A model generated the notes under the pieces. It was not told the origin of the DNA. It ran no database searches and saw only the letters and a list, made by a program, of their open reading frames with translations. From Shewanella sediminis HAW-EB3 (GTDB lineage Bacteria; Pseudomonadota; Gammaproteobacteria; Enterobacterales; Shewanellaceae): a DNA stretch of 64,000 nt. The stretch covers positions 3,658,001-3,722,000 of the forward strand of contig NC_009831.1 in assembly GCF_000018025.1 (NCBI RefSeq), in the 5' to 3' direction. Below are positions 19,384 to 37,385 of the stretch, one piece after another (the first letter of the stretch is position 1; every line of letters begins with the position of its first letter). A program made the position numbers and the translations under genes.

Positions 19384-19890
19384 TTAAAGTTGGGACAGTT
19401 CCATCCACTCTTCGTCAGATAACAGCTTATCCAGGTCTACAAGGATAAGTAACTCATTATCCCTGTTACTCACACCTTGAATAAACTTGGCACTTTCCTC
19501 TGTTCCGACGTTAGGTGCATTATCTATCTCTGAACCACGAAGATAAACAACTTCAGCAACACTATCGACCAGAATACCAATCACCTGCTTTTCAGCTTCA
19601 ATGATCACAATTCTTGTTGAGTCGTCTATTTCAGCAGAAGCTAAGCCAAAACGAGTGCGCGTATCTATGACTGTGACAACATTACCCCTTAGGTTGATAA
19701 TGCCCAATACATAGTGTGGTGCACCGGGAACGGGTGCAATTTCGGTATATCTTAATACCTCTTGAACCTGCATGACATTAATGCCATAAGTTTCATTGTC
19801 GAGTCTGAAGGTTACCCACTGCAACACCTCATCATCTTTATTTACCGCTACCGCTACTTTATTTGCGTCTGTCATATCTACCTCAGCCAA
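19384..19890 (-). CDS. cheW: Chemotaxis coupling protein CheW
   Basis: A 168-residue single CheW/SH3-like-domain protein that links chemoreceptors to CheA in the polar array. Typical motifs are FRLDNETYGINVMQVQEVLR (about 28-47), PVPGAPHYVLGIINLRG and VIDTRTRFGL. Its start overlaps the parP stop by 8 bp, so it is translated as part of the cheA-cheB-parC-parP-cheW operon. A hairpin downstream probably ends the operon. Nothing unusual was seen. Confidence 0.93.
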   Translation of the reverse strand: MAEVDMTDANKVAVAVNKDDEVLQWVTFRLDNETYGINVMQVQEVLRYTEIAPVPGAPHYVLGIINLRGNVVTVIDTRTRFGLASAEIDDSTRIVIIEAEKQVIGILVDSVAEVVYLRGSEIDNAPNVGTEESAKFIQGVSNRDNELLILVDLDKLLSDEEWMELSQL

Positions 19891-21016
19891 CAGGATCCTG
19901 ACTACCTAAACCTGAATTTAATAACTCTATGAGTGCTTGCACATGCAATATGCCACACATCTGCTCTTTTACTACACCAGCCAACCAAGGGCGCTTCCCA
20001 GCTTTGCTCCGCCAGTTGACCTCAGATTTCGTGATTCTTACTGCATTTACCAAGGATTCACACGTCAATCCCCAGTTACTATCTTCTAATAATACAACAT
20101 ATTGATAGTTTACGGATTCAGCTAACGCTTTATCGTACTTTTCAGGCATGACCCAAGCACCGGTATCGACAACATTTAACTGTGTATCTCTATATGTTTG
20201 GACTCCCTTATACCAAGCGGGTCTGCCCATAATATGATTAATCCGTTCAATTTTAACTATTCCGCCCAGGCTCACTAACGGCACGGCCAATGTCAGCCCT
20301 GCTACCTTAAAGAATAGTACCTGAAACTCATCATCGAGCGTTTCAAGCAGATCTTTTGTCACTTTAGGTGGTATTTCACCTAATTGTGTCTTTAACTCTA
20401 ATTCCTGTTCCTGCTTTTGCTTTTGCTTAATATCGGCCTTGTTCTCAACATGAACATCGACTTTAGGCTTAACAGAGACTTTATCCGGAACAGATGTCGT
20501 CTTAATTTTCGATTTCGCAAGCGTTTGATTCTGAAGCTTAACAATTGATTCAGTTTCAATCTGTGGCTCAGGTTTGAAAACCGGCGCTAAAAGTTGCTCC
20601 AGAGCCAACTTATCCAGATTAGGATCGGTCTCTCTAATTTTTGGTTTCGTTAACGCCTGTGTCTCTGTATGCGTCTGATTGTGGGATTGAGTCTTGAGTT
20701 GTGTTTGTAGCCTTGGCGGCTCAATCGCTTCTGGCTTTTCAGTTACAGACTCATTTCCAGCAGGCCTTGATGACTCTTGCGTTAAAGGGTCAATATTTAC
20801 AGCCTTTTTATTTACAAGATCTGGTTTTACTTGTTCTTGATTTAAAGCTTCTGGTTTCAACGCCTCGACACTTGATCCGTCTGAAATCAGTTCGGGGAAC
20901 ACTTGTTCAGCAATATCGGCCGTTAGTGCCTCAACTTGAATATTTGACTCATCTTCGACCTCAGTAAGAAGCAGAGAAAAATAATCGAATACGGTTTCAT
21001 CAACTGAGGTTGTCAT
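19883..21016 (-). CDS. parP: ParP-like CheW-domain protein for polar chemotaxis arrays
   Basis: A 377-residue protein. Residues 1 to about 230 are predicted disordered and rich in Gln, Lys, Thr, Pro and Glu. The C-terminal 140 residues form a CheW-like domain (LFFKVAGLTLAVPLVSLGGI, then GVQTYRDTQLNVVDTGAWVM, then WLAGVVKEQMCGILHVQALI). In Vibrio, ParP contains a CheW-related AIF domain that binds CheA and receptors and, with ParC, keeps arrays at the pole. The gene overlaps parC by 17 bp and cheW by 8 bp, matching the Vibrio order parC-parP-cheW. Assignment rests on architecture and synteny. Confidence 0.85.
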   Translation of the reverse strand: MTTSVDETVFDYFSLLLTEVEDESNIQVEALTADIAEQVFPELISDGSSVEALKPEALNQEQVKPDLVNKKAVNIDPLTQESSRPAGNESVTEKPEAIEPPRLQTQLKTQSHNQTHTETQALTKPKIRETDPNLDKLALEQLLAPVFKPEPQIETESIVKLQNQTLAKSKIKTTSVPDKVSVKPKVDVHVENKADIKQKQKQEQELELKTQLGEIPPKVTKDLLETLDDEFQVLFFKVAGLTLAVPLVSLGGIVKIERINHIMGRPAWYKGVQTYRDTQLNVVDTGAWVMPEKYDKALAESVNYQYVVLLEDSNWGLTCESLVNAVRITKSEVNWRSKAGKRPWLAGVVKEQMCGILHVQALIELLNSGLGSQDPVG

Positions 21017-21791
21017 GAGAAAGCTCCCCAGTCAGTAGATGTTCTAACAACCTTTCATATGCCTTCGCACCACGACTGCTTGCCGAGTAATGAGAAGCGG
21101 GAAGATGCGCTAAACTCGCATCTCTGAATTTTGTGTCAACCGGAATAACATCCGGCCAGAGTTTGTCACCATACTTTTCTCCCAGATGCTGCAGTGCGGA
21201 TGATGCCGCCTTTGTCCGTCTGTCATACATAGTAGGAACAACAGTATAGTTATATCTGGTTTTCTTAGACCGCCCCATTAAGATCATGGTTTTTATCATT
21301 CGGTCCAAACCTTTAATCGCAAGAAACTCCGTTTGAACAGGCACAATGATATGCTGACTTGCCGCAAGCGCATTGACCATCAACACACCTAAGACTGGTG
21401 GACAATCGATCAGTGCGACATCATAGTCATCTTCAACTAAAACAAGCAGTTTTTGCAGTATGAGCCCCATGCCTCCTTGGTGACCGAGAGACCTATCTAA
21501 GGTCGCAAGCGCCATAGTCGAAGGAAGGAGGTCGATCCCCTCGACATCCGTTGAGACGACATGGCTTTTCACTCTCTCTTTAGTGAGCTGCTTATGAGCC
21601 AAAAAAACATCATAGAGAGAGCCAGGAACCTCTTCGGAATCAATGCCAAGGTAATAGCCCAGTGATGCGTGAGGATCGGTATCGATCATCAAGACACGCT
21701 GGCCACGTTTAGCCAGAGCCCCAGCTAAACTGGCAACCGTAGTCGTTTTACCCACGCCACCTTTCTGGTTTGCTATGGTCCAGATCTTCAA
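21000..21791 (-). CDS. parC: ParA-like ATPase ParC for polar chemotaxis array positioning
   Basis: A 263-residue Soj/ParA-family ATPase. The deviant Walker A KGGVGKTTT is at 10-18, DTDPHASLGYYLG forms the A' motif near 39 and LIDCPPVLG is the Walker B region near 128. In Vibrio, ParC localises chemotaxis arrays to the cell pole through HubP and ParP. It lies 36 bp after an unrecognised membrane-anchored protein and overlaps parP, inside the chemotaxis operon, which argues against a plasmid or chromosome-partition role. Confidence 0.88.
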   Translation of the reverse strand: MKIWTIANQKGGVGKTTTVASLAGALAKRGQRVLMIDTDPHASLGYYLGIDSEEVPGSLYDVFLAHKQLTKERVKSHVVSTDVEGIDLLPSTMALATLDRSLGHQGGMGLILQKLLVLVEDDYDVALIDCPPVLGVLMVNALAASQHIIVPVQTEFLAIKGLDRMIKTMILMGRSKKTRYNYTVVPTMYDRRTKAASSALQHLGEKYGDKLWPDVIPVDTKFRDASLAHLPASHYSASSRGAKAYERLLEHLLTGELSHDNLS

Positions 21792-21827: not shown

Positions 21828-22481
21828 CTAATTATTTTCTCGAGTTGTCACTCGAATGCCGCCATGAGGCAAGCTTATCACTTTAACCCCATCTTCATTT
21901 TCTGAAATAGTTAGGGGAACCGCCACTAACTCTTTCTGAACGCCGCTACCGTCGACTTCACTCTTTATCCCACCGGATTCAAGAGTGGAAGCAAGCTCGG
22001 CTTCCTGGGTATTCGAAGGCGTTTGTGAACTATGTCTGGATAGATCCGTTGCTTCGTTAACAGAGTCCCCATCAATTTTCTGATTCGGAGTGCGGGCAAT
22101 ACTGCTTGGTACAACTATATCATCCTGACCCAATTGTGCAGCGTTACGCGACTCACCTTGACTCGTTTTGTGAACTCTGGCCTCAGAAACCTCTACACCG
22201 GGTCCAACTGTCACCTTAACTTCCTGCTGAGGTTTAGCGTGGGATAGCAATGCCTGTGTCGCTTTGGGATGTTCAGCCATCCATTTTGCTACAACTTCAG
22301 CTTGCTCGTCTGGCACCATGAGTAAAACCTGACTACTTTGCAATCGCTCCACCTCGCTGAGTAGCAATGTATTTTTATGCCGCACATCGAAGTAGAGGGT
22401 AGTTGTAACAAAAACGCCTATTGAGAGTAGAAAAATAATCAGAATAGAGAAAGTGTTCATCTTTCTCTTGGCTCTAGCCAT
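21828..22481 (-). CDS. Unrecognised membrane-anchored protein in the chemotaxis operon
   Basis: A 217-residue protein that I do not recognise. A basic start (MARAKRKMN) precedes one transmembrane segment (about 10-29), then a short coiled coil (about 33-48). A helical patch [18 protein letters not shown] follows, then about 110 residues of polar, probably disordered sequence. The tail is more ordered-looking, [19 protein letters not shown]. Topology is probably N-in with the bulk periplasmic, by the positive-inside rule. It overlaps the cheB stop by 8 bp and precedes parC by 36 bp, so it is co-translated with cheB and parC. That position suggests a part in array placement, which is only inferred. 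Confidence 0.8.
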
Positions 22482-23614: not shown

Positions 23615-25816
23615 TTATTTTTTTGCGTAATTCTTCAGCAAACCAGGTACATCAAGGATCAGTGCAATACCACCGTCAGATGTAATTGTGGCCCCTGCCA
23701 TGCCTGGTGTTCCATGCAACAAGGTGCCCAGAGGCTTAATAACAACTTCTTCTTGACCAATAAGAGAATCAACCACAAAACCTATCTGCATAGTGCCAAG
23801 TTGAACAATAACCACATGGCCATGCTCTTTATCACCATGCTTAAACCCGGTCTGTTTTCGGCTAAGCCAGTGCTCTAGATAGAACAGAGGCACGGCCTTT
23901 TCCCGAACGATTACTGTCAGCTGACCATCGACGATATTTGTCTTAGTCAGATCGAGGTGGAATATTTCACTCACACTTGATAGAGGCAGTGCGAAGACTT
24001 GTGTTGCAACTTCAACCATTAATGTCGGCATAATCGCGAGCGTTAACGGTACTTTAATCTCTAATCGAGTTCCCTTACCTTGCAAGGAGTCGATATGAAT
24101 GGTTCCGTTCAATTGAGCAATACGGGTTTTAACCACATCCATTCCGACGCCACGCCCCGAAATATCGGAGATCTCAACTTTGGTTGAGAAACCTGGAGCA
24201 AAAATCAGGTTATACGCCTCTTCGTCAGACATTCTTGACGCGGCATCTTCATCGAGCACACCACGACTTATGGCGATCTCTTTAAGTTTATTTGGATCCA
24301 TTCCGGCGCCGTCATCCTCAATCTTCAATAGGATGTGATCACCTTCCTGACTAGCAGAAAGGGTTATGGTACCCGTTCTGGATTTACCCGTAGCTTCTCT
24401 GTCTGCTGGCATCTCGATGCCGTGGTCGACAGAGTTTCTAACCAAGTGAACCAATGGATCGGCAAGTGCTTCGACAAGATTCTTATCTAAATCGGTATCT
24501 TCACCGATCATTCTCAGATCAATTTCTTTATTCAGGGTACGGGCTAAATCACGCACGACTCGAGGGAAACGGCCAAAGACCTTCTTAATCGGCTGCATGC
24601 GAGTCTTCATCACCGCACCTTGAAGATCGGCGGTAACAAGATCCAGATTAGCCAAGGCCTTAGAGAGTTCCTCATCGTCCCGGTTAATCCCTAAGCTGAT
24701 AAGGCGGTTTCTCACTAACACTAACTCACCGACCATATTCATGATCTGATCGAGCCTTGCAGTATCGACACGAACTGTCGTTTCCGCTTGTGGCATATTC
24801 GCCGGTGCCGCTTTGGCTACAGCCTTAGGTGCCGCTTTAGCTACCGGCGCTTTCGCAGCAGGCTTGGCAACTGGGGTTGCTGGAGCTGCAGGTGAACTCT
24901 TAGGCTGGCTAGCTACAGGAGCTGGGCTGACAGCTTTGGGGGCTCCACCCGAACCATGCAATTCATCGAGTAATTTTTCAAATTCATCATCAGATATGTC
25001 GTCGGAATCTACCGCTGGAGGCGCAGGCTCAACTGGTGGGGCAACTTGTGCATCCTTATTTTTAAACTGACCAGAGCCATGCAGTTCATCGAGCAGTGAC
25101 TCAAACTCATCGTCTGTGATATCACTGCTTGCAGGAGTTTCAGGAGCATCAGATTTAGAATCCTTAGAACCGGTAGGACCATTCGCCGCACCGTGAAGAG
25201 CATCGAGAAGCGCCTCAAATTCTGACTCATCAATTTCATCAATACTGCCGTTGCCAGAGCCGCTACCAGCTCCAGCGACTGTGGTTTCCGGGGCTTGGAC
25301 TGCTGGTGCAGGTGCCTCATCAAACAGCTCGATACCCGAATCATCCGCTGCCGGAGCTTGATCGAATAACTCAATTGAGTCGTCGGAGGCTGGAGCCTCC
25401 TGGGCAGCACCTTCACTGGGAAGAGGAGCACCTGAGCTCAGTAATTTTAAGTTGGCTAATAGTTCTGCATCGGCGGGGTCTTGCTCGACACCTGCCTGAG
25501 TCTGAGCAAACATTGCGTTGATGGCATCCACTGCTTGCAGAATGATATCCATCAATTCTGAAGATACTTCTCGCTTACCTGTCCGCAACAGATCGAAGGT
25601 ATTCTCGGCTTCATGACACACATCGACCATTGGGCCTAAGCTAAGAAATCCAGCACCGCCTTTTACGGTATGGAAACCTCGAAAGATTGCGTTTAGCAGT
25701 TCCGTATCTTCTGGATTATTTTCCAGAGTGACTAACTGTTCAGACAAAAGCTCTAAAATTTCACCAGCTTCGATCAAAAAGTCCTGCAGTATCTCTTCAT
25801 CAACATCAAATGACAT
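23615..25816 (-). CDS. cheA: Chemotaxis histidine kinase CheA with repeated linker motifs
   Basis: A 733-residue kinase that phosphorylates CheY and CheB. The P1 HPt domain carries His49 in FRGFHTVKGGAGF. P3/P4 begins near 345: MNMVGELVLVRNRL, N box LADPLVHLVRNSVDHG, G boxes IEDDGAGMD and GRGVGMD. A C-terminal CheW-like P5 domain follows. Between P1 and P3 there is no obvious folded P2 domain. Instead three acidic repeats of the form DDEFExLLDELHG lie at about 192-209, 231-248 and 272-290, separated by Pro/Ala/Ser-rich linkers. Two DDS(G)IELFD repeats lie before them. The gene is 15 bp after cheZ and 25 bp before cheB. Confidence 0.95.
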   Translation of the reverse strand: MSFDVDEEILQDFLIEAGEILELLSEQLVTLENNPEDTELLNAIFRGFHTVKGGAGFLSLGPMVDVCHEAENTFDLLRTGKREVSSELMDIILQAVDAINAMFAQTQAGVEQDPADAELLANLKLLSSGAPLPSEGAAQEAPASDDSIELFDQAPAADDSGIELFDEAPAPAVQAPETTVAGAGSGSGNGSIDEIDESEFEALLDALHGAANGPTGSKDSKSDAPETPASSDITDDEFESLLDELHGSGQFKNKDAQVAPPVEPAPPAVDSDDISDDEFEKLLDELHGSGGAPKAVSPAPVASQPKSSPAAPATPVAKPAAKAPVAKAAPKAVAKAAPANMPQAETTVRVDTARLDQIMNMVGELVLVRNRLISLGINRDDEELSKALANLDLVTADLQGAVMKTRMQPIKKVFGRFPRVVRDLARTLNKEIDLRMIGEDTDLDKNLVEALADPLVHLVRNSVDHGIEMPADREATGKSRTGTITLSASQEGDHILLKIEDDGAGMDPNKLKEIAISRGVLDEDAASRMSDEEAYNLIFAPGFSTKVEISDISGRGVGMDVVKTRIAQLNGTIHIDSLQGKGTRLEIKVPLTLAIMPTLMVEVATQVFALPLSSVSEIFHLDLTKTNIVDGQLTVIVREKAVPLFYLEHWLSRKQTGFKHGDKEHGHVVIVQLGTMQIGFVVDSLIGQEEVVIKPLGTLLHGTPGMAGATITSDGGIALILDVPGLLKNYAKK

Positions 25817-25831
25817 TAATATGACTCCTAA

Positions 25832-26599
25832 TTAGAAACCCAGACTCGAAAGCAGATCATCGACTTCGTCTTGACCTGTGACAACATCATCACGTTCCTC
25901 TGCATTCATGATAGGCCCCTCGGCTTCAACATTGCTGCTCGTGATTGGTGTGTCCTCACTAACGGGCTGTTCACCAAATACAGTAAGCATAGAAACTAAG
26001 TTATTTTCGACTTCACGTACTAAGTCGATGACCCTTCGAATCATCTGCCCTGTTAAATCTTGGAAATCTTGAGCCAATAAAATTTCATTTAGTAGCTCTC
26101 TTAAACGAATCGAATCTAATTCGCTTCGATCGACAAACTGCTGAACGTCATGACAAAGAACCTTAAATTCATTCAGTTCGATATCACGCCTCATGAGCTT
26201 ACCCCATGTTGGTTTTACCGATTGAATATTCGTTGTCAGAGCCTCTGCCAAAGGCAGACACTCCTCAACAGCATCCATGGTTTTATTTGCAGCTTGCTCT
26301 GTCATATCGATGACATATGTTAGGCGTTCTTTAGCGTCAGGGATCTCAGTACTCGCTAATGTGATCAGTCTGTCATCGACCTGAAAATCAACAATGGCAC
26401 TGTGAAGCTGTCGAGTCAGTCTTCCAACCTCATCGAACAGTTCTTTTTGAATTGGCGTTGCAATGTCCCTGACCAACTCGTCGGCTTGCTCTTGCTGGCC
26501 TTCGGTCAGCAGTTCGACAAGTTTATTTGCTTGCTCTAACGAAATGAGCCCTGAAGTTATAGCCTGCATAACACAACCTTGATTATCCGAGTCGTTCAA
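25832..26599 (-). CDS. cheZ: CheY-P phosphatase CheZ
   Basis: A 255-residue four-helix-bundle phosphatase that dephosphorylates CheY-P. The catalytic region is [18 protein letters not shown] with Asp178/Gln180 or nearby Gln residues inserting into the CheY site, as in the E. coli enzyme. After a disordered acidic segment the protein ends [13 protein letters not shown] (243-255), the C-terminal CheY-binding peptide. It overlaps cheY by 17 bp and precedes cheA by 15 bp. CheZ next to cheY-cheA is usual in polar-flagellate gammaproteobacteria. Confidence 0.94.
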
Positions 26600-26966
26600 A
26601 AATTTTGTCTAACTTCTCTTTTAACGTAGCGGCTGTAAAAGGCTTAACAACATAACCATTCACACCCGCTTGCGCTGCTGCGATGATCTGCTCTCTTTTT
26701 GCTTCTGCAGTAACCATCAGCACAGGGAGGTGCTTTAACTCATCGTCTGCACGAATCGCTTTTAATAGATCGATTCCCTGCATGCCAGGCATATTCCAAT
26801 CGGTCACGACAAAATCGAAGTCGCCTTTTTGCAACATAGGCAGTGCTGTTGAACCGTCATCTGCTTCTTGAGTGTTATTAAAACCCAAGTCTCTTAACAA
26901 GTTCTTGATGATACGCCTCATTGTTGAGAAATCGTCAACAACGAGAATCTTCATATTCTTGTCCAA
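26583..26966 (-). CDS. cheY: Chemotaxis response regulator CheY
   Basis: A 127-residue single receiver domain whose phosphorylated form binds FliM to change flagellar rotation. The acidic pair [11 protein letters not shown] is at 9-19, phosphoacceptor Asp56 is in [11 protein letters not shown], the conserved Thr is in LMVTAEA and Lys in GYVVKPFTA. It lies 73 bp after fliA and overlaps cheZ. A short palindrome resembling fused MITE ends lies in the upstream gap. Confidence 0.96.
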
Positions 26967-36359: not shown

Positions 36360-37385
36360 TTATAACTCTTTCGCTTCTCTGACCTTCGCCTTGCGAGTGA
36401 CCAGTTGCAGCTCATTCTTAGCCGTTTCCGGTCTCGGAATGGTTTCACATATTCTCAAAGCTAAATTATCACGCGCAGTACCTAGTTTGCATCGGTAAGT
36501 CGGCAGATCTTCGACCCTCATAACGATATGTTCCGGCAATTCAACGGTGATCACGTCCCCTTGTTTAAATTCCATCACATCTTTTAACGTAACCTGATGC
36601 TCTACAATGGTTGCATCTATGCCTACATCTACATCCATAATCTCATCCTTTAATGCCTGCGACCAACGCATATCGGTATCTTGAGTGTCACTTTGTACAC
36701 CGGCATCAAGCAGTTCACGGATAGGTTCAATCATTGAATAAGGCATGGTGATATGAAAATCCCCTCCCCCGCCATCGACTTCGATATGGAATGAACTGAC
36801 GACAACCACTTCGGTAGGGCTAACAATATTAGCCATAGCCGGGTTGACCTCAGAGTCCAGATAATCGAACTCGACATCCATCACAGGTGCCCAGGCATCT
36901 TTATAATCTTCGAAGATAATCTTTAGCAGTAACTGCACGATACGTCGTTCAGTTGGGGTGAATTCACGACCTTCAATTTTAGCGTGAAAGCGTCCATCTC
37001 CACCAAAAAAGTTATCCACTAAGATAAAGACTAATCTTGCTTCCATGGTGATCAGTGCCGTCCCTTTCAGGGGGCTAAAACGCACCATATTGAGACTGGT
37101 AGGAACAAATAGAGTATGGACATATTCGCCAAACTTAAGCATTTGGACACCGTTAATGGACACTTCGGCGGCTCGGCGCATCATGTTGAACATGCTGATC
37201 CGTAAATGGCGAGCAAAACGCTCATTCACGATCTCCAGCGTAGGCATACGTCCACGGACAATACGATCTTGCGAAGAGAAGTCATAGGAGCGGGCATCAA
37301 GCCCCTCGTCTACCTCATCTTCTTCTACGTCATCTACACCATGCAGTAACGCATCAATTTCGTCTTGGCTTAATAGATCACTCAC
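36360..37385 (-). CDS. fliM: Flagellar switch protein FliM
   Basis: A 341-residue C-ring protein that binds CheY-P. The N-terminal CheY-binding peptide is LLSQDEIDALLHG (about 4-16). The middle CheC-like domain includes ERFARHLRISMFNMMRRAAE and the GG-loop region VDGGGGDFHITMPYSMIEP. The C-terminal SpoA domain ends in TRKAKVREAKEL. It follows fliL by 41 bp. Confidence 0.96.
   Translation of the reverse strand: MSDLLSQDEIDALLHGVDDVEEDEVDEGLDARSYDFSSQDRIVRGRMPTLEIVNERFARHLRISMFNMMRRAAEVSINGVQMLKFGEYVHTLFVPTSLNMVRFSPLKGTALITMEARLVFILVDNFFGGDGRFHAKIEGREFTPTERRIVQLLLKIIFEDYKDAWAPVMDVEFDYLDSEVNPAMANIVSPTEVVVVSSFHIEVDGGGGDFHITMPYSMIEPIRELLDAGVQSDTQDTDMRWSQALKDEIMDVDVGIDATIVEHQVTLKDVMEFKQGDVITVELPEHIVMRVEDLPTYRCKLGTARDNLALRICETIPRPETAKNELQLVTRKAKVREAKEL

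Follow-up and report, generated by a model that had tools for sequence, protein, structure and literature searches.

Three conserved acidic helical repeats in the linker of a P2-less CheA of Shewanella sediminis, probable docking motifs for CheY

In Escherichia coli CheA the P2 domain binds CheY together with P1 (PMC5705603), and in a Pseudomonas putida study the CheY-binding domain of CheA was assigned by Pfam (PMC11978298). P2 is called dispensable by Berry, Andrianova and Zhulin (2023), who, using HHpred, report P2 to be missing from more than half of all CheA proteins and the AlphaFold linker of P2-less CheA to be unstructured (PMC10782961). In a term search, the main text of that paper contained neither the word 'motif' nor the word 'FliM', and by title and abstract, a scope outside which most subscription papers lie, we found no description of a CheY-docking motif in CheA. 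The N-terminus of FliM binds CheY, and does so better if CheY is phosphorylated (PMC7355467). In Vibrio, ParP binds a segment of CheA between P2 and P3, termed LID, by way of its AIF domain, a single tryptophan of which is required; the LID is reported to occur only together with ParC and ParP (PMC5706961, PMC7534058).

The window analysed here is a stretch of 64,000 nucleotides of the Shewanella sediminis HAW-EB3 genome. It carries a chemotaxis operon in the gene order cheY, cheZ, cheA, cheB, a small frame, parC and parP, and the features which concern us are as follows.

23615..25816, minus strand: cheA, 733 aa, P1-linker-P3-P4-P5, without P2
25517..25795, minus strand: P1 (Hpt), residues 8-100, Pfam PF01627
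24782..25432, minus strand: P1-P3 linker, residues 129-345, predicted disorder except for three repeats
24602..24781, minus strand: P3 dimerisation domain, residues 346-405, Pfam PF02895 (H-kinase_dim)
26583..26966, minus strand: cheY, proposed partner of the CheA repeats
25835..25873, minus strand: CheZ C-terminal peptide, of known CheY-binding type
37338..37367, minus strand: FliM residues 7-16, QDEIDALLHG, of known CheY-binding type
21000..21791, minus strand: parC (ParA-like ATPase)
19883..21016, minus strand: parP (CheW-like AIF domain, residues 232-364)

Pfam places Hpt at residues 8-100 of CheA, H-kinase_dim at 346-405, HATPase_c at 453-592 and CheW at 599-728. Both the operon context (cheY-cheZ-cheA-cheB-parC-parP) and the high similarity over P3-P5 put this protein in a clade which we take to be class F6, following the usage for Vibrio cluster II. 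That cluster is given as F6 in PMC7534058. The small frame between cheB and parC is a coding frame of 217 aa (21828-22481), and among 100 loci it matched only two (L069 and L071), both from the genus of the window.

The linker between P1 and P3 is rich in proline and alanine and holds three acidic repeats of the form D-[DE]-E-F-E-x-L-L-D-x-L-H-G, which together span CheA residues 192-290, exactly 24947-25243 of the window.

25190..25243, minus strand: repeat 1, IDEIDESEFEALLDALHG, residues 192-209, predicted helix 197-207
25073..25126, minus strand: repeat 2, SDITDDEFESLLDELHGS, residues 231-248, predicted helix 235-245
24947..25003, minus strand: repeat 3, residues 272-290, DDISDDEFEKLLDELHGS (272-289) plus one residue, predicted helix 276-286; by Vibrio linker conservation the candidate for overlap with the LID

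The initial annotation had read all three as DDEFExLLDELHG; repeats 2 and 3 fit this consensus, while repeat 1 is only a diverged copy, identical to each of the other two at 10-11 of 17 residues. Repeats 2 and 3 agree at 14 of 17 residues and use the same codon for just six of those 14, and by this sequence comparison they are old duplicates kept at the protein level; a recent tandem duplication of the DNA is ruled out by the same codon divergence. Ahead of the main repeats the linker also holds two copies of another short acidic repeat, DDS(G)IELFD (25310-25384, residues 145-169), and one to three matches to [IV]ELF[DG] were seen in 42 of the best 120 listed Shewanella-type CheA.

The P2/CheY-binding domain of CheA (Pfam PF07194, PF09078) sits, like the repeats, between P1 and P3, and the job which we propose for the repeats, docking of CheY, is the same; P2, however, is a folded domain, whereas the linker of the window has no predicted fold, no profile match and no PDB match. 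Neither a P2 nor a CheY-binding Pfam model was found in the window CheA at E≤1, so that the profile search in residues 130-345, which the initial annotation had named as a possible refutation of its claim, came back without a P2. A sequence search of the PDB with the linker returned no chain, only a single chance match at E 0.69; as a positive control, a search with the L110 linker, from a CheA like that of E. coli (family f162), retrieved the E. coli CheA structures with P2, e.g. 1a0o_B, at E down to 1.6e-30. AlphaFold2, run with 44 sequences, modelled residues 129-351 as coil except for three helices of 11 residues each (197-207, 235-245 and 276-286), every one coinciding with a repeat, in a model of low confidence (mean pLDDT 53, pTM 0.28, with P1 at about 85). 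In blocks of ten residues the pLDDT was 48-59 over the repeats and mostly 26-34 over the remaining linker. If the model is right, the repeats are isolated amphipathic helices in a disordered context, as for motifs of the FliM/CheZ type. A P2 too diverged for Pfam was rejected for the window CheA, since no PDB chain was retrieved where the control worked and the model has no strands in the linker. The weak Pfam matches in the linker, SHOCT and GemA (21.2 and 24.7 bits against a gathering threshold of 27 each) among them, are sub-threshold and were set aside as short acidic-helix look-alikes. A Foldseek search with the model listed 50 matches, all CheA kinase parts or other kinases, with no aligned range given, and is uninformative for the linker. 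Pfam finds the four other domains, and Pfam, the PDB sequence search and AlphaFold2 agree in showing no folded P2, as the initial annotation had supposed; by these searches the protein belongs with the P2-less CheA of Berry, Andrianova and Zhulin.

We aligned the linker across 44 CheA of Shewanella and Vibrio, a comparison which the initial annotation had suggested with Pseudomonas included; of residues 127-342, 33 columns were invariant, and every one of these fell inside a repeat. Among the best 120 of 8000 scored relatives of the window CheA, 119 carried three copies and one carried four, and three copies were likewise present in all of the best 120 of 8000 scored relatives of a Vibrio fortis CheA. 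A wider census covered 167 rows of CheA, nearly all from gammaproteobacterial genomes and the rest from other classes of the phylum. The rows were ranked by the BLAST score of residues 346-733, without the remainder of the protein, and divided where the scores drop from 362 to 346 bits. Linkers shorter than 60 aa (L002, L033, L144, L175), a locus with no CheA match above 150 bits (L037) and a copy of the window CheA (L008) were left out. In the clade above the gap (≥362 bits, 57 family codes) the motif, by a regular expression composed after the sequences had been seen, was present in 112 of 114 CheA, with one copy in 11, two in 26, three in 62, four in 12 and five in one; it did not occur outside the linker in any of the 114. 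The two rows without the core motif (L132 and L137, family f46) have near-variant repeats. These variants are like DPDGEITDDEFEALLNQRD and lack LHG, and their genomes have no ParC or ParP match. Below the gap (≤346 bits) the motif was found in 0 of 53 rows, which contain two genes entered twice (L022/L177 and L029/L247); several of them have a domain at the linker position. Composition shuffles of the 114 clade linkers, 300 each, gave a mean of 0.00006 motif matches per linker. Furthermore, 56 of 58 loci outside the census (L040-L068 and L205-L233) could be parsed, and all 56 had two to four copies, some of their genomes having been counted already; eight of them are named, from Vibrio, Agarivorans, Aliagarivorans and Celerinatantimonas. 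The motifs are real, old and under strong constraint. One might still regard the repeats as acidic sequence of low complexity that binds no particular partner, in line with their acidic, Pro/Ala-rich surroundings and with scores against a FliM/CheZ matrix that are not extreme; but with 33 invariant positions amid a variable linker, a protein sequence conserved over diverged codons and the motif in 112 of 114 clade CheA over 57 family codes, we consider this very improbable.

What the repeats may bind is suggested by their likeness to two peptides in the same window, the N-terminal FliM peptide QDEIDALLHG and the C-terminal peptide of CheZ, both of which are present as the initial annotation had claimed. 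The FliM peptide shares with the CheA repeats a core of acidic-acidic-hydrophobic-acidic-x-L-L; the repeats differ in having F for I, D or E for Q and, ahead of HG, one more turn of the form D-x-L, and whereas FliM has one site at its terminus, CheA has one to five copies within its linker. The C-terminal helix of CheZ also has this core, with x-x-L coming one turn later, but it ends with LGF at the chain end, whereas the repeats are internal and continue as HGxG. In short, FliM and CheZ have I or V at the position of the motif's F, and Q and D at positions that are mostly D/E in the motif. We built a matrix solely from 91 unique CheA repeat cores and scored 18,317 windows of the 57 reading frames of the window, the FliM and CheZ sites having been named in the initial annotation before this search. 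The three CheA repeats took ranks 1-3, FliM 7-15 rank 5 and CheZ 243-251 rank 9; interspersed were windows not known to have anything to do with CheY binding, in FliA (rank 4), ParP (6), another stretch of FliM (7) and a further frame (8). In the reverse direction a matrix of FliM and CheZ ranked two of the CheA repeats 7th and 11th and left the third below the top 15, the scores of single windows being not extreme. The likeness is therefore present but modest, and by eye no pattern of covariation between FliM peptides and CheA motifs was seen (10 FliM from 16 loci). Also, a preference for phosphorylated CheY like that of FliM would be odd for a docking site on the kinase, which counts against CheY as partner. 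Other partners have to be weighed here, as P2 itself is described as docking CheB besides CheY (PMC11978298) and an acidic, helical motif could fit any receiver domain or basic groove. The repeats might then dock the CheB or CheV receiver domain, or P4 or P1 of CheA, and control kinase activity rather than CheY supply; we hold this to be quite unlikely, as FliM and CheZ, both named beforehand as CheY binders, score in the top ten with the repeat matrix. The initial annotation had proposed that linear motifs recruit CheY instead of a folded P2: the searches and alignments bear out conserved linear motifs and no folded P2, and CheY is the partner to which the sequence likeness points indirectly. 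Indirect support for CheY also comes from the lack of the motif in the 53 other CheA rows, several with a domain in its place, and from the motif having been kept in genomes where no ParC was found. Taking these lines together, we judge that the repeats are, somewhat more probably than otherwise, CheY-docking linear motifs in place of P2.

We also looked at how other CheA classes fill this position. The Pfam CheY-binding model matched four of 147 CheA linkers, and Pfam P2 was absent among 25 of the 33 families listed for linkers, the other eight having at most one member each. The linker of L110 is of P2 type by the PDB search and has no repeat; those of L109 and L111 are similar by eye and also have none. 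The second CheA of the window genome (L007) has a conserved domain at the linker position and no motif. It and 24 relatives belong to another CheA class, in which a conserved domain with WxIxFxP..TGNDPxR sits where P2 would be; a profile built from all 25 found no chain in the PDB except a single chance match at E 0.69. Three further linkers (L151, L158, L240) look P2-less by eye and are also without the motif. A universal rule of either P2 or this motif therefore fails, the linkers of L151, L158, L240 and L237-L239 showing neither by eye and regular expression; since L151, L158 and L240 have no P2-like stretch and no motif, a dock is perhaps not needed in every CheA. In betaproteobacterial CheA related to that of Sulfuritortus calidifontis, one segment of the type DINWDxLHAxLTG, a pattern composed after four linkers had been seen, was present in 118 of 118 proteins (those longer than 580 aa among 120 listed matches, close relatives with 60-100% over the N-terminal part), and P2 was not among their listed Pfam domains. 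AlphaFold2, with one CheA folded, gave the Sulfuritortus linker a single helix, residues 169-177 on this W-type motif (mean pLDDT 72). The hydrophobic spacing of the W-type motif resembles that of the CheA repeat, but the MAFFT register differs. The linkers of L234, L237, L238 and L239, from other classes of the phylum, share PGEVS[LM][DE]ELExxF, possibly another docking motif, and that of L234 also holds a stretch resembling truncated globin by eye. The linkers of L235, L236 and L026 contain segments of the form (P)IGEILV..G.., which by eye we take to be like GspE-N/MshEN-type domains; if so, a sensor of c-di-GMP may occupy the P2 position there.

A competing reading, which draws on the published Vibrio work and is absent from the initial annotation, is that the repeats are the LID: by binding the CheW-like AIF domain of ParP they would anchor the array at the pole by way of ParC, and CheY would play no part. 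Ringgaard 2014 reportedly gave the original description of the CheA-LID in Vibrio. That segment lies in the same linker of an orthologous CheA whose operon, like that of the window, holds parC and parP, and the repeats too lie between P1 and P3 with ParC and ParP nearby. In 117 close Vibrio CheA the linker is conserved mainly in the three repeats, together with a short tail that follows repeat 3, and the LID therefore probably contains or touches a repeat. The LID is, however, described as occurring only together with ParC/ParP (PMC5706961, PMC7534058), and the CheA repeats, which are what our comparison covers, occur also where ParC gave no match. ParC matches at E≤1e-48 were obtained in 129 of 199 genomes of the order and 107 of 281 of the class. 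The motif or a variant was present in nine CheA, of six or seven families, from genomes without a ParC match, families f10, f21, f23, f24 and f46 having kept it without ParP as well. The clearest case is G287, one contig and 100% complete, where an F6-type CheA has three canonical repeats and neither ParC nor ParP was found. G007, G021 and G124 (95% complete, 240 contigs) have two repeats, G018 and G137 one and G020 degenerate ones; G154 has three variant repeats and G234 two, and the sole ParA-like match in each of these genomes is a distant one (126 and 138 bits). A tenth genome (G139) likewise gave no ParC match, and its CheA frame is truncated. ParP was not found at E≤0.01 in the nine genomes; since ParP is hard to detect and was missed in four genomes with ParC, the ParC result carries the weight. 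Three CheA (L176, L178 and L244) were left out when CheA with and without ParC were compared: in G144 and G245 ParP occurs without ParC, probably through assembly gaps, and G614 lay outside the ParC search. A FastTree of P3-P5 requires at least seven changes of the ParC label, four of them forced by well-supported branches, by a method that joins long branches readily. On the other hand, the CheA without ParC have fewer copies (12 regular-expression matches, or 17 with variants, in nine CheA against 283 in 102 with ParC, uncorrected for kinship), which speaks for a part in ParP binding, and one copy may accordingly serve ParP. The tail GxGQ[FH] of the middle repeat was dropped by eye as the ParP determinant, as Vibrio has ParP and lacks the tail. 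Since repeats or variants persist in nine CheA without ParC, ParP binding as the sole role is unlikely on these sequence comparisons, the analogous motif of the Sulfuritortus-like CheA perhaps pointing the same way; we would give the LID without a CheY role perhaps one chance in several.

Returning to the repeats as docking motifs for CheY, the linker would be a disordered chain with three amphipathic helical short linear motifs standing in for P2. Each copy would become a short helix upon binding CheY, and perhaps also upon binding the receiver domain of CheB. FliM, CheZ and the P2 of E. coli all use the alpha4-beta5-alpha5 face of CheY, and this would most likely be the binding face here too, so that the repeats could hold CheY near the phosphorylated P1 with its aspartate left free. 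It is plausible that multivalency raises the local concentration of CheY. One copy, most likely the last, may have been taken over as the LID that binds ParP. Of this picture we infer the partner and the face at which it is bound, the part played in phosphotransfer and any gain from having three copies.

What is new, if this reading holds, as we think reasonably probable, is that tandem linear motifs take the place of a folded dock. P2 would then be replaced rather than dispensable in a clade of 57 family codes that includes Shewanella and Vibrio. A broader proposal, which we put forward tentatively and with more doubt than belief, is that P2-less CheA, over half of all CheA, have largely moved CheY docking into lineage-specific helical linker motifs with tunable copy number: the F-type in one to five copies in the gammaproteobacterial clade, the single W-type DINWDxLHAxLTG in Betaproteobacteria and perhaps GEVSxEELExxF in some Alphaproteobacteria, with one copy co-opted as the ParP-binding LID in species with polar arrays. 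If that co-option is true, array tethering and CheY supply would compete for, or share, the same tail; valency would be tunable, and one stretch of the protein may link phosphosignalling with the tethering of polar arrays. Docking by such motifs may account for the way in which many P2-less CheA kinases find CheY.
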